The notes beneath the pieces were generated by a model, which worked only from the letters and a program-made list of their open reading frames with translations, was not told the origin of the DNA and made no database searches. Made by a program: the position numbers and the translations under genes. From Sphaerobacter thermophilus DSM 20745 (GTDB lineage: Bacteria > Chloroflexota > Chloroflexia > Thermomicrobiales > Thermomicrobiaceae), in NCBI RefSeq assembly GCF_000024985.1, contig NC_013523.1, positions 310,001 to 374,000 of the forward strand: a DNA stretch of 64,000 nt. The letters run 5' to 3'. Below are positions 1,378-6,036 of the stretch, in pieces. Positions within the stretch are counted from its first letter, which is position 1, and each line of letters opens with the position of its first letter.

Positions 1378-4300
1378 TTATGCGCGCCGGAATGCCTCGC
1401 CGAGATGGGTCTGCTGCACGGCCGCGACCTGCGGTGCTCGGCGCTGCGCCTCAGTCGGGGTTGGCAGCTCCTCGGCGAGGAACAGCTCCCCGGCAACGAT
1501 CTCATCGAGCAGAGCCTCCTGCTCCGGTTCCAGCGCCAACACCCCTTCCAGCACCCAAAGCAGCTCGAGCAGCTCCTTGGTCATCTCCCACGTCCAGCGC
1601 TCGGGACGAATGTCGTCCAGCGGCGAGGACTTGCGCCCGGCCCGCTCCCGCATGCGGTATCCGAGCCACGACCGCACTACGTTCAGTCCCGAGACCTCAT
1701 AGTCCCAGATGCGGGGATCAACCCGCTCGATTACACCTTCGCCGACATGGAGCTCTTGCGCGCTGGCATCGTAGCGGACGTCCTGTTGGAGGCTGACGGG
1801 GTATTTCTCGGGGTCGCTCGGGATCGCGACCTTGACCCGAGCGCGCCCAGGCGGTACCCGACCGCGTTGCGTGCCTATCGACTCAGGGAAGCGCTCTGCG
1901 TAGGTCTGCCAGGCGATGACCTGCTTACCCAGCTCGGCCGCTCGCCGGAAGAGGGTGACGTTCTTGGTCAGCGGCACCCGAGGGCCCGGCTCTTCCAGTT
2001 CGTCGTGGAAGCGTGCGGTGTAGCCCGGATGCCCCAAGACTCCGGCGATGTATCCGATCAGGTCCTCGGGCGTGACGGCGGAACCGTAGGTTTGTTCCAG
2101 CAGCTCGAGAAGCCCGTGCGTGATGTTTGGCTCCCGCGCCGGAGCGTCCCGATAAAGGGGCATGACATCCTTGCCGCCGCGATTACAAAAAAAATCAATG
2201 TCTGGCACGTTGGAAGCGGCAATGACAGCACTCCCGAAACCAAGAGGTTTGCTGAGCTGACTGATAAGAAAAATCTGTCTATCAGAATAAGAGCGCCACA
2301 CGGTTGGGCGACAGAAGTCGCCCAACCGTGAATCCCGAAAGACGTACTGACGATCGAACGAGCGGTACCCATACCGAACGATTTCGGGAGGTTCCGCGTC
2401 TGGGGATAATGAGTTGATGGCGGGTAGGGTGCCATTATCACCAAGTTGATCCTCATACGACTGAGAAACCTGCCGATCTCGTGTCTCGCGGAAATATTTG
2501 GCCCGATCAGGAGCTGCGAGTAATGCCGACCAACGCCGTTCGAGCACATCGCGACTGACACCAATCGGCCACAAACGTTTCAGTTGTACCCCCGAATGTT
2601 GCCATGGCATCACTTCAAGAATCGAGGGCCACGCAAAGTAGTCACCAGCAGAGGTAGGTATGAGCGGCTGCCCCCATCCAGTTTGGCCCGGTTGCCATGA
2701 AATGACAGCGAAACCCGTCAGTTCTGAGAGGACGGCGAACTTCTCAGCCCGCGTGCCGCGAACCCGCGCGTAGTGCACCGTGGCTGGCTGGTCACGATTC
2801 GGATTGCCGTACCGGACTCCAACTGCGATCGCGACGGGGGTCTGGATATCGAAGACATTCTCGGTCTTCCTGGTACCCCGGCTGTCGCCCTCCAGGTCGA
2901 GGATCCAGAGCTCGTCGAAGGTGCGCCGCATCTCCTCGCGCATCCCAACGAAGCCGGGGCCGCGGAGGTACGATGACGCGGTGATGAACGAGACGATGCC
3001 GGGACCGTCCTGCGCTTCGAAGACCTTCCACAAAGCCCAGCGCCAGAAGTAGACATAGAGGTTGTAAAGGTTCTTGACGTGGAGAGCCTTGCCGGCTTTG
3101 AGCGCCGGGTCCAAGAAGGACCTGAGCGGTGCCTTCTTGGTGACCTGATCACCGAAGCGGATCCAGCGCCCCCCGGTCTTGCCGTCATCCGAGTCGCTCT
3201 CTTCCCGCTCGTAGGGTGGGTTGCCGATGCAGACGAGGATGGGGGTCGTTCGCTTCACCTCCCGCGCCCGGCGATGCTCCTCGGCAAGCGGCTTCTCGTA
3301 GAAGCTGTGCGGCAGAGTCGTGATCTCGTTCGGCGACTCCAGCGTGTCAGTCAGATAGATGTGGACACCGTCGTCCGGTTCACGGCCTCCGAACTCGTGG
3401 ATCGCCTGGGCCAGCCGCAGGTGTGCCACCGCATACGGCCCAACCAGCAGCTCGAACCCGTAGAGGTTCCGGGCCATCTGGCTGGCGATGTCCCCAGCGG
3501 CGCCCGGCCCGTAGATCGCGGTCGCGCGTTCGATCCCGTGTTGTAGCACGCGCAGCAGGTAGGTGCCGGTGCCGGTGGCTGGGTCCAGCACGGTCACGTC
3601 CGGGTCGGCGAAGCCCAGCGGGCGGTTGAGCTTCGTCCGCAGCAGCTCATCGACCAGCGTCACCTGCGCCTTCACGACCTGAGCCGGAGTGTAGTAGACG
3701 CCGCGCTCGTCGCGCAGCTTCGGATCGTAGACAGCCAGAAAGTCCTCGTAGAAATAGAGCCAGGGATCCGTGTCGCTCTTGCCGCGAATCGCCGCCGGGT
3801 CGACCGCCTCGATGGTCCGCTCCAGCAGATCGATCCCCGGCCCAAGTTCCTCACGGGTGCCCTGCTGGGTCAGGATCTCGAGCGTTCGGGCCAGCAGCGA
3901 GGAGTGCTTTTGGATCGCGCGGGCCGCGCTCGGGGTATCCAGCGTCGTGGCTCCGCTCAACTTGGCAAGAAGGAGGCCGTAGGTCAGCGTCTGCGCATAT
4001 GCGTCAGCAAACTGGTCCGGGGTCGCTTCGGGGAAGAGCGTGCGCCTCCAGTCGTTGTAGATGCTGGTGAGTGCTGGTTTCTGCTCCCGGATTGCCTCGG
4101 CGACGTCTCCGCGAATCATGCGAGTCAAGGGGGCCAACTGCTCCGCGAGGGCGCGGGCGCTGGTTGGGACGATCGGCTGCCAGCGGAGGAACTCCCGCAG
4201 TAGCCCCAGCAGTTGGTTCGCGTCTCGCTCGGTGAGTTCGGCAGGACCACGCTCATCGATCTCGCCGAGCCTCACGTCGTGGGCGCTCTGGCGCTTCCCA

Positions 4301-4686
4301 TCTCGGTAGAACGTCCAGTCTCGTGCGTCGGTATAGACCAGGTTTGGCAGGGCGAGGAACTTGTTCAACTGTGCCCTGTCGCGCCCCCGGAGCTCCCGGC
4401 TGGTCGTCCCGACTCCGGGCGCCTTGAGCTCGATGTACCCGACCAGCAATCCATCGACTGCGATGGCGAGATCCGGCCGCCCGACCTCATCTACCGGAGA
4501 TTCGGAGAAGATTGAGACGTTGAGCCCGAGCGCCCGGCCAACTCGCTCGACGAGCCGCGGCACGCTCCTCTTGAGTTGATCTTCAGCCTGAAATGGGATC
4601 TGGTCGGCACGATCGGCGGTCGCTTTCACTTCTTCAGCGAACGACCGCAGGGCAGACTGGACCGCCTCGAGCGGGGAAACGGACAT
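1378..4686 (-). CDS. Single-chain type ISP-like restriction-modification enzyme (nuclease, N6-adenine methyltransferase, specificity domain)
   Basis: A 1102-residue protein joining cleavage, methylation and target recognition in one chain. Residues about 55-110 hold a PD-(D/E)XK-type nuclease signature: RPDL with D72, YIELK with E86 and K88, then QLNKF at Q106. A helical linker follows, then an N6-adenine methyltransferase: motif X-like GVYYTPAQVV (about 329-338), SAM-binding VLDPATGTGT (about 366-375), and catalytic NPPY (about 489-492). The C-terminal third (for example YIAGVLGHPGYTARF, then RVPLTKNVTLF) resembles the type ISP/LlaBIII specificity domain. No helicase motifs are visible, unlike true type ISP translocating enzymes. 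The gene stands alone and parts (about 2150-2640) are AT-richer than neighbours, suggesting acquisition. Phage defence is inferred. Confidence 0.88.
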   Translation of the reverse strand: MSVSPLEAVQSALRSFAEEVKATADRADQIPFQAEDQLKRSVPRLVERVGRALGLNVSIFSESPVDEVGRPDLAIAVDGLLVGYIELKAPGVGTTSRELRGRDRAQLNKFLALPNLVYTDARDWTFYRDGKRQSAHDVRLGEIDERGPAELTERDANQLLGLLREFLRWQPIVPTSARALAEQLAPLTRMIRGDVAEAIREQKPALTSIYNDWRRTLFPEATPDQFADAYAQTLTYGLLLAKLSGATTLDTPSAARAIQKHSSLLARTLEILTQQGTREELGPGIDLLERTIEAVDPAAIRGKSDTDPWLYFYEDFLAVYDPKLRDERGVYYTPAQVVKAQVTLVDELLRTKLNRPLGFADPDVTVLDPATGTGTYLLRVLQHGIERATAIYGPGAAGDIASQMARNLYGFELLVGPYAVAHLRLAQAIHEFGGREPDDGVHIYLTDTLESPNEITTLPHSFYEKPLAEEHRRAREVKRTTPILVCIGNPPYEREESDSDDGKTGGRWIRFGDQVTKKAPLRSFLDPALKAGKALHVKNLYNLYVYFWRWALWKVFEAQDGPGIVSFITASSYLRGPGFVGMREEMRRTFDELWILDLEGDSRGTRKTENVFDIQTPVAIAVGVRYGNPNRDQPATVHYARVRGTRAEKFAVLSELTGFAVISWQPGQTGWGQPLIPTSAGDYFAWPSILEVMPWQHSGVQLKRLWPIGVSRDVLERRWSALLAAPDRAKYFRETRDRQVSQSYEDQLGDNGTLPAINSLSPDAEPPEIVRYGYRSFDRQYVFRDSRLGDFCRPTVWRSYSDRQIFLISQLSKPLGFGSAVIAASNVPDIDFFCNRGGKDVMPLYRDAPAREPNITHGLLELLEQTYGSAVTPEDLIGYIAGVLGHPGYTARFHDELEEPGPRVPLTKNVTLFRRAAELGKQVIAWQTYAERFPESIGTQRGRVPPGRARVKVAIPSDPEKYPVSLQQDVRYDASAQELHVGEGVIERVDPRIWDYEVSGLNVVRSWLGYRMRERAGRKSSPLDDIRPERWTWEMTKELLELLWVLEGVLALEPEQEALLDEIVAGELFLAEELPTPTEAQRRAPQVAAVQQTHLGEAFRRA
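2299..2330. repeat. Perfect 14-bp inverted repeat inside the restriction-modification gene
   Basis: CACGGTTGGGCGAC and GTCGCCCAACCGTG are perfect complements separated by AGAA. They lie entirely within the coding sequence, around residues 786-796, where the protein reads RLGDFCRPTVW. A stem this long and perfect within a coding region is unlikely by chance. It sits in the AT-richer part of the gene. Confidence 0.8.
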
Positions 4687-4743: not shown

Positions 4744-4802
4744 ACAAGCTTTGCTCGTATCATGTGGTTGTTACCCGTCACTGGGTGAGATGGCCCGGGC
4801 GG

Positions 4803-5036
4803 TCAATCCGCGAAGCCGGTGTCGGCGTCGACGCGGCGCCAGCGGGGCAGGCTGGGGCGTGGCAGGAGCGCGGCGACCCGGGGCACGAGGGCGTAGGCGC
4901 CGACGGTGAGCAGCGATCCGGCGACGGCGTCGACGATGTAGTGGTTGCCGGTGGCGACCACGACCAGCACGACCAGCAGCCAGTAGCCCAGTGCCAGCCA
5001 GCGCAGGCGGCCGCGGCTGAGCCGGCGTAAGTGCAG
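4803..5036 (-). pseudogene. C-terminal remnant of a PAP2-family phosphatase
   Basis: Read on the minus strand, this stretch encodes about 78 residues that include ATGNHYIVDAVAG. That is the third (histidine-aspartate) motif and last membrane helix of PAP2/inositolphosphotransferase-type membrane phosphatases. It ends at a natural TGA (4803-4805). Upstream the frame is closed by a TGA at 5049-5051, inside a hairpin. The KxxxxxxRP and PSGH motifs and any start codon are missing, so only the tail of a gene remains. Confidence 0.7.
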
Positions 5037-5064: not shown

Positions 5065-5139
5065 TCCTTGTTTGGGTCGTGTGATGAACGTGTGCGGCCC
5101 ACCGTGGCGCAGCCATCCGGGGTCATGCTTGGCAGTGTT

Positions 5140-5279
5140 GTCATCCTGAGCGGAGCCGTGCCCGGCTGGACGCCGGCCACGGCGGAGTCGAAGGATCTCA
5201 CGTCGGAGCAACGCGCTATGGCGAGATCCTTCGCTCCGCCGCCCGCCGCTCCGCGGCGACCGGCTCTGCTCAGAATGAC
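5140..5279. repeat. 140-bp palindromic interspersed element (complete copy)
   Basis: The ends are GTCATCCTGAGCGGAGCCG (5140-5158) and CGGCTCTGCTCAGAATGAC (5261-5279), which match as inverted repeats at 17 of 19 positions. A second, perfect inner pair is CGAAGGATCTC (5189-5199) and GAGATCCTTCG (5223-5233). No gene is encoded. A half copy lies at 154-181. Elements of this general look are miniature palindromic repeats without a transposase; a non-autonomous mobile origin is inference. Confidence 0.7.
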
Positions 5280-5385
5280 CTTTCCCATGGCTGGCCGGAC
5301 GGGTTGATCGGCTCACTGCGAGGACCAGGAGCACGGTCTGGGAGCACTGGCGTGACGCGCGTCTCTTGGGACGTGTGGAACAACG

Positions 5386-5415
5386 AAACAGCCGGCGCGG
5401 AAGCGCCGGCTGTTT
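5386..5415 (-). terminator. Intrinsic terminator of the small transcription unit
   Basis: AAACAGCCGGCGC and GCGCCGGCTGTTT form a perfect 13-bp stem with a 4-nt loop. On the minus strand the stem ends in TTT and continues CGTTGTT, so it works best in that direction. It starts about 34 bases after the stop codon of the 15-codon ORF. Confidence 0.75.
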
Positions 5416-5449
5416 GGGTTTCGTTGGGCAATCACCGAGGTGGTGCCTG

Positions 5450-5497
5450 CTAGCCGGCAACCTCCGCGGTGATGCCCGTAGTACCGTTACTACTCAT
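5450..5497 (-). CDS. Putative 15-residue peptide with a perfect Shine-Dalgarno sequence
   Basis: The minus strand reads ATG...TAG for MSSNGTTGITAEVAG. It is preceded by TAAAGGAGGTGAT (5518 to 5506), a full match to the 3' end of 16S rRNA. From the end of that match to ATG is 8 bases. A promoter with a perfect -35 lies upstream and a strong terminator downstream, so a complete minimal gene is present. The peptide is neutral, has no cysteine, no hydrophobic helix and no recognised family. The codons also form a hairpin that would hide the ribosome-binding site. It could therefore be a leader peptide or part of a regulatory RNA. Translation is not proven. Confidence 0.42.
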   Translation of the reverse strand: MSSNGTTGITAEVAG

Positions 5498-5555
5498 ATC
5501 GTGGCATCACCTCCTTTACCCTGCGCGGTCTGGAACTTTGCGAATACGTGCACGA

Positions 5556-5584
5556 ACTCTAACACGCCATGGGGTGGGTGTCAA
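5556..5584 (-). promoter_or_regulatory. Sigma70-type promoter of the small transcription unit
   Basis: On the minus strand a perfect TTGACA (complement of 5579-5584) is followed after exactly 17 bases by TAGAGT (complement of 5556-5561), a 4-of-6 match to the -10 consensus. Transcription would begin near 5549. Confidence 0.6.
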
Positions 5585-5587
5585 ATG

Positions 5588-5618
5588 CCTCAGGGGGATC
5601 GTTGCTCCCTGAGGGAGC
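5588..5618 (-). terminator. Hairpin after the LysM lipoprotein gene
   Basis: CCTCAGGG (5588-5595) pairs with CCCTGAGG (5607-5614). Alternatively GCTCCC (5604-5609) pairs with GGGAGC (5613-5618). It begins just downstream of the lipoprotein stop codon and could end the five-gene operon before the small unit's own promoter. Confidence 0.5.
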
Positions 5619-5619
5619 A

Positions 5620-6036
5620 CTAGGGCTCATCACGCCCCGGCACGATCAGCACCTGGCCTGCCTGAAGCCAGCTCGGATCGGTGATCCCGTTGGCCTCCGC
5701 CAGGGCCTGCGGGTCGACGTTGAGTTGCACCGCGATGCCGTAGAGTGTGTCGCCGGGTTGGACCACGTAGGTGTTGCTCGTCGCTTGTTCGTCCGGCGCA
5801 TCCTCCGCGCCCTGATCCGCCGGGGTCGGCGTGACGGGCGGCGGGCCGGGGGTCGGTGTCACAATCTTCAGCATCGGGATCGACGTGGGCGATGCGATCA
5901 CCGTGGGCGTCTCCGTCGTGTCCGTGCCGCGTGGGAGACAACCGGTCAACAGCGCCGCGGCGATGGCGACGAGCGGCACGAGAGCACGCAAGCGGCGGGC
6001 CGCCCCTGGCCCGGGCGGTTTCAGTGCGAGTCCCAT
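5620..6036 (-). CDS. LysM-domain lipoprotein
   Basis: A 138-residue exported protein. Residues 1-33 form a lipoprotein signal with an arginine-containing head, a hydrophobic stretch and the lipobox LLTGC (Cys33 would be lipidated). A Thr/Pro-rich linker follows (about 34-85). One LysM domain sits at about 88-131 (TYVVQPGDTLYGIAVQLNVD...LQAGQVLIVPG). LysM binds N-acetylglucosamine-containing glycans, so it probably tethers to the cell wall or an envelope glycan. It is the last gene of a minus-strand operon, 9 bases after the DUF3006 gene. No catalytic domain is present. Confidence 0.85.
   Translation of the reverse strand: MGLALKPPGPGAARRLRALVPLVAIAAALLTGCLPRGTDTTETPTVIASPTSIPMLKIVTPTPGPPPVTPTPADQGAEDAPDEQATSNTYVVQPGDTLYGIAVQLNVDPQALAEANGITDPSWLQAGQVLIVPGRDEP

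Follow-up and report, generated by a model that had tools for sequence, protein, structure and literature searches.

A predicted mini-ORF RNA unit with two competing hairpins in Sphaerobacter thermophilus and its relatives

Although Chloroflexota abound in soil, in hot springs and in waste-water plants, knowledge of their RNA biology is, as far as we are aware, very scarce. In a 64,000-nucleotide stretch of the Sphaerobacter thermophilus genome (hereafter the window), a compact arrangement of signals occupies positions 5386-5584 of the minus strand, comprising a promoter, an extended Shine-Dalgarno sequence (SD) with a 12-base match to the anti-Shine-Dalgarno, an open reading frame (ORF) of 15 codons with alternative pairings around it, and a terminator stem. 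An original prediction had interpreted these elements, all of which were located again on re-reading, as a translational or transcriptional switch (thermosensor, riboswitch or leader-peptide attenuator) or as the gene of a tiny peptide, lying beside a decayed PAP2 gene that it might once have controlled. The question raised by the locus is whether the arrangement is a gene at all and, if so, whether selection has kept its peptide, its RNA structure, its translation or the control of a neighbour.

Layout of the unit and its complementarity to 16S rRNA

The unit opens with a sigma-70-type promoter at 5584-5556 (TTGACA, 17 bases, TAGAGT, with a TG ahead of the -10 box), which carries 10 of 12 consensus bases. 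A promoter scan found this single site in 5300-5700, against 0.1 expected from shuffles, and flagged no antisense promoter in that interval. All 11 homologues in the family keep the -35 box TTGACA, together with TGnTAnnnT-like -10 boxes. Transcription probably starts near 5549 on the minus strand, and a transcript running from there to 5386 would make an RNA gene of about 165 bases. Immediately 5' of the SD lies the motif CC-GNNYA-GG (5520-5528), a putative mini-hairpin by its pairing potential; CC-N5-GG stands there in 65 of 70 class loci, and the motif is confined to the class, being absent outside it.

The extended SD, AAAGGAGGTGAT (5517-5506), is at all 12 positions complementary to the tails of the two 16S rRNA genes (GGATCACCTCCTTT; both tails read GGCTGGATCACCTCCTTT) and is near-invariant among relatives. 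Throughout the 3.99-Mb genome, which has two replicons of 2,741,033 and 1,252,731 bases, this 12-mer occurs here and opposite the two 16S ends, and nowhere else.

The ORF (MSSNGTTGITAEVAG, 5450-5497, minus strand) runs from an ATG at 5497-5495 to a TAG at 5452-5450. Within it, segment 2 (GGGCATCACC, 5477-5468) is complementary to segment 1 (GGTGATGCC, 5511-5503), which overlaps the SD and would form an SD-occluding hairpin (1:2), or alternatively to GGTGATTGCCC (5436-5426), belonging to segment 5 (CGGTGATTGCCC, 5437-5426) 3' of the stop codon. Covariation and predicted folding point to segment 2 as a switch strand, whose pairing with segment 5 (2:5) would free segment 1. In the predicted fold, segments 3 (GGAGGTTGCC, 5465-5456) and 4 (GGCACCACCTC, 5447-5437) are the 5' and 3' arms of an inner extension of the long hairpin; the equivalents of segment 3 in relatives were recognised by eye only. 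The stability of the predicted fold corresponds to z = -5.7, which none of 200 shuffles equalled. The further GUAGUA/UACUAC stem of the original prediction is not conserved in relatives.

The 13-bp terminator stem that had also been claimed is present at 5386-5415, but its minus-strand T-run is weak (TTTCGTTGTT) and the scan flagged it in the plus orientation only, so that it may act both ways. Relatives show strong hairpins with T-runs, clear ones in many cases. Having its own promoter and terminator, the unit is, as far as sequence signals tell, a separate transcription unit.

Distribution among relatives and conservation of the hairpins

Class, order and family refer here to those of Sphaerobacter itself; taxon placement outside named records follows a kinship label, and many of the relatives are metagenome-assembled genomes. 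Searching the family at the DNA level gave one unit per genome in 11 further genomes, and every one of these units had promoter boxes, SD, 15-codon ORF and terminator. The covariance search from the locus, which had been suggested with the original prediction, was carried out with a first model of 12 sequences and a second of 72, the E-values being rough owing to a short calibration. With the first model, the unit was located in 53 of the order's 61 genomes (none of the 28 of good quality lacked it) and in 128 of the 158 from the class (82 of the 93 of good quality), mostly as a single copy, while the second, in a search of the phylum, recovered 53 of the 54 class genomes drawn as well as scattered genomes outside the class. 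When 70 class loci were inspected by eye, every one showed a strong SD whose GGAGG core is followed at 8-12 nt by a start codon, and an ORF of 13-17 codons; segment 2, segment 5 and the terminator were nearly always present. Judged by this conservation in relatives, the unit is far beyond chance. A few genomes carry two units (L053; L084 and L085; L080 and L081), the copies at L053 overlapping as an inverted pair.

Outside the class, the loci found by the model (L099-L118, except L115, which is a class member) have the plan in common and the sequences changed. In L108, L114 and L118, the SD GGAGGAGGTGATG[CT]C has its match in G[AG]CATCCCTCCT within the ORF, and another part of the ORF matches the segment after the stop codon. 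An SD-plus-start pattern (AAGGAGGTGRTG-N1-9-ATGRNT) occurred in 107 of 400 phylum genomes, against 2 control matches; 28 of the 36 pattern loci fetched have mini-ORFs of 13-29 codons and the same general layout, and large-genome lineages show, for instance, AAGGAGGTGGTGTGTA-ATG with 24-codon ORFs. Deep homology of these pattern-found loci is plausible, less certain than within the class. A core pattern, which detects close forms only, yielded 35 stretches over the genomes of 84,980 species, lying in Chloroflexota-named records, one 'bacterium' record and one Ectobacillus record; the Ectobacillus stretch looked unrelated by eye and was rejected as a relative. The core pattern had 0 matches in viral contigs, and spread by viruses was discarded as an explanation.

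The two hairpins leave different evolutionary traces. Among the 12 family sequences, 97.5% of the cells of 1:2 are paired, segment 1 being constant and the changes in segment 2 staying pairable by wobble; the family alignment contains no double-sided changes in this stem, because segment 1 is fixed by its complementarity to 16S rRNA. The 2:5 stem is paired in 96.2% of cells in the same sequences, with double-sided changes in four pairs. Across 71 distinct class sequences the paired share is again 96.2% of cells, 9 of 11 pairs have changed on both sides, the covariation score was reached by 0 of 500 shuffles and slid controls paired at no more than 58.5%. Because the alignment had been made to fit the model and the sequences share ancestry, these figures are biased in favour of the structure. 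Exchanges of C-G to G-C and of A-U to G-C are nevertheless seen across families. Such an alignment of relatives had been proposed as the check for compensatory changes or conservation, and the unit came through it.

For 69 class loci, the duplex between SD and ORF has a mean energy of -16.1 kcal/mol, against -9.9 in shuffles. This complementarity beats shuffles at 59 of the 69, with the other 10 failing to beat 5% of shuffles, and at 16 of 20 model-found loci outside the class. In the distant pattern set, pairing between the ORF and the post-stop segment beats shuffles at 16 of 28 loci, and SD occlusion at only 7 of 28. On the comparative evidence, both the 1:2 and the 2:5 pairings are kept by evolution, and the proposed switch with two competing hairpins is supported by the covariation of 2:5 together with the retained SD:ORF complementarity.

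Partition-function folding of growing transcripts gave 1:2 a predicted occupancy near 0.7-1.0 until segment 5 appears, and 2:5 one near 1.0 thereafter. The same order emerged from the prediction for every one of the 11 loci covered, whether at 37 or at 55 °C. Predicted SD accessibility in the full-length RNA extends from about 0 to 0.8 between loci, so that the 'open' state is a relative one.

Reading frame, peptide and possible function

The distance from the ATG to segment 2 is 17, 20 or 23 nt, always 2 modulo 3, in 65 of 65 measurable loci, and that from segment 2 to the stop codon is 22, 25 or 28 nt. Since these spacings differ by multiples of three, the indels on both sides of segment 2 are whole codons, and genuine translation of the tiny ORF is supported by this conservation of frame. 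The peptide is weakly constrained, with a pN/pS of 0.74 outside segment 2 and 0.82 overall, values that do not indicate strong purifying selection. No peptide similarity remains between classes (19-29 residues, e.g. MSERSRCTGSGIESHTFQERGLSR), and no membrane-spanning stretch was seen by eye, the peptides being short and mostly polar. The claim of a tiny-peptide gene holds in so far as the frame is kept and the ORF appears to be read, but not as regards clear conservation of the product.

Nearly every mini-ORF (loci L001-L118 and L186-L215; 5497-5474 in the window) has a stop in the -1 frame within the first eight codons, usually a TAG, TGA or TAA split after its T across codons 2 and 3. Such a stop is found in 69 of 70 class loci (25 expected from synonymous shuffles, 38.6 with codon 2 kept), in 16 of the 20 model-found loci outside the class, and in 26 of 28 of the pattern set, where the pattern itself fixes part of codon 2.

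Our preferred reading, in which we place about even confidence, is a stand-alone mini-mRNA whose translation would be gated by its own folding and whose output would be the act of translation or the RNA. The peptide drifts while the frame, the ORF length, the 16S complementarity and the hairpins stay, which suggests that the selected output is translation or an RNA state set by the ribosome, rather than the peptide. In such a mini-mRNA, segment 2 of the 15-codon ORF would have two alternative partners, the SD region (segment 1) and segment 5 beyond the stop codon. During transcription, the SD hairpin 1:2 is predicted to form first and to be swapped for 2:5 after segment 5 has been made, a handover by which the start site would open only on a nearly complete transcript.

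Segment 2 lies at -25 to -16 before the stop codon in 47 of 65 loci, about where, judging from ribosome footprints in general, a ribosome that is terminating would have its rear edge. By the arithmetic of these distances, segment 5 would lie just ahead of a terminating ribosome and segment 2 about at its trailing edge. With this geometry, a ribosome at the stop codon would release segment 2, closing the SD behind it, and the closed SD could block the next ribosome until the first leaves, so that ribosomes would be admitted singly. Candidate outputs are the parking of ribosomes, the stability of the RNA or the uncovering of a segment that acts in trans. A broader proposal, in which the unit, a single-copy mini-mRNA with maximal complementarity to the 16S tail, would be a core RNA of the phylum serving as a ribosome sensor or valve that passes one ribosome at a time, with occupancy rather than the peptide as the signal, is advanced tentatively, as a possibility we hold to be somewhat improbable. 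That the unit is so deeply conserved suggests that it matters for how ribosomes are sensed or used.

The strictly kept frame and length, a pN/pS below 1 and a C-terminal R or K that is often present would also fit a functional micropeptide (about 15 residues) encoded by an mRNA that limits its own translation through the two hairpins. Peptides are alike within lineages, following M-S-x-K-R-x-G-V-T-x-G-E-A-R in one family and M-S-S-H-G-T-x-G-I-T-V-E-V in another. However, it is the RNA pairing that fixes their core G-[IV]-[TA], constraint outside it is as modest as stated above, and between classes the RNA plan persists where peptide similarity is gone; we regard this explanation as doubtful. 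It seems unlikely that the unit is a dual-function or trans-acting small RNA, in which segment 2 (anti-SD-like) or segment 1 (SD-like) would pair with other RNAs. Its stand-alone, single-copy nature with promoter and terminator would suit such a role, and segment 1 could hold the 16S tail by 12 bp, but no conserved unpaired seed stands out apart from the start region. In this reading, translation of the mini-ORF would set which segment is exposed, and the RNA would be comparable to the trans-acting leader RNA rnTrpL of Sinorhizobium (PMC7298713).

The genomic surroundings bear on whether the unit serves a downstream gene, for instance the decayed PAP2, as a cis leader (attenuator, riboswitch or thermosensor), or is the 3' part of a LysM operon. 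In Sphaerobacter, a small LysM lipoprotein gene (5620-6036) adjoins the unit upstream, and at 36 of 71 class loci, in several families, such a gene on the same strand has its end 60-230 nt before the unit. It is missing beside about half of the class loci and beside the 19 tested outside the class; judged from this distribution, the LysM gene is an old but dispensable neighbour. Genes for DUF1684, PIG-L or luciferase-like proteins lie downstream in single lineages, but no downstream gene is conserved across lineages, where DUF1684, luciferase-like, dxs, PIG-L, Sir2, RecN and others are found. The original suggestion of control over the PAP2 gene, or over any one downstream gene, finds no support, given these differing neighbours, and a leader-peptide attenuator in the usual sense lacks its regulated gene. 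The idea of a temperature switch fares no better, since going from 37 to 55 °C leaves the predicted occupancies of 1:2 and 2:5 much the same and the family extends throughout the class, beyond the thermophile. With a promoter of its own besides, the unit is very unlikely to be a cis leader or an operon part. The region downstream of it in Sphaerobacter is decayed and repeat-rich, as a chance arrangement or decaying relic might be expected to look, but near-universal presence in the class, covariation and whole-codon indels refute that explanation, to which we assign practically no weight.

Within this downstream region, translating what is left at 4800-5000 gives a sequence similar to the end of a PAP2-type protein, although a Pfam search of the ORF tested at this remnant reported nothing, and no link between the remnant and the unit was seen. 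Between the remnant and the RNA, at about 5135-5290, lies a repeat-like GTCATCCTGAGCGGAGCC...GAAGGATCTC with an inverted partner, and farther on, at 1378-4686, a large type ISP restriction-modification protein with N6_Mtase and Type_ISP_C domains is encoded.

Comparison with known systems

Searches of Rfam at gathering and permissive thresholds returned nothing credible, the best match being Leu_leader with 23.8 bits against a threshold of 50, and no paper describing this RNA was found in the literature, which was covered incompletely. The RNA gene escaped annotation because its ORF has only 15 codons. Identity with tmRNA or 6S RNA was rejected, as the unit has no Rfam match and ordinary copies of both RNAs are present elsewhere in the genome, so that it replaces neither. 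We know of no counterpart to a gated mini-ORF that stands alone and is universal in its class while its peptide drifts.

The hok mRNA is a type I toxin mRNA with a metastable SD-sequestering hairpin. Hairpins of this kind are also described in the AapA1 mRNA of Helicobacter pylori (PMC6733600). Type I toxin mRNAs (AapA1, hok) resemble the unit in being stand-alone short mRNAs with a tiny ORF, in which a local hairpin can hide the start during transcription and a longer-range pairing later replaces it. They differ from the Chloroflexota unit, whose peptide is polar and lacks conservation and whose late pairing would free the SD, whereas toxin mRNAs typically end translation-inert; the unit is also single-copy and near-universal, whereas they are sporadic. 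The hydrophobic, membrane-active peptide that marks this group was not seen among the peptides read.

Leader-peptide attenuators (trp, erm) and the rnTrpL leader RNA of Sinorhizobium, which acts in trans (PMC7298713), share with the unit a tiny ORF, a strong SD and alternative hairpins that include ORF codons and are followed by a terminator. Mutually exclusive hairpins, a feature of attenuators and riboswitches, are indicated here by covariation and predicted folding. Unlike those systems, the unit has neither a conserved downstream gene nor a codon bias to one amino acid, and its switch would control the SD of the mini-ORF itself.

SgrS, SR1 and RNAIII are dual-function small RNAs with a short ORF. 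Further examples of small RNAs that also encode peptides have been described (PMC5521070). The unit is similarly an independent sRNA-like unit carrying an ORF, but here ORF and structural switch use the same bases. Extended SD pairing has been described for many mRNAs of Staphylococcus aureus (PMC13009471), and the 16S complementarity likewise reaches well beyond the usual core; in Sphaerobacter, however, the 12-base match is found once in the genome outside rRNA. Taken against each known kind that could be tested, the unit fails at least one tested defining feature, except for the broad class of dual-function small RNAs.

A near-universal, single-copy RNA of a class is a candidate core regulator of a breadth comparable to that of 6S RNA. 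Should translation itself turn out to be what is selected, the unit would offer a compact example from nature of a transcript that reads the state of the ribosome, and it lends itself to clear tests by compensatory mutation. The individual tricks, namely metastable SD hairpins, trans-acting leader RNAs and extended SDs, are known.
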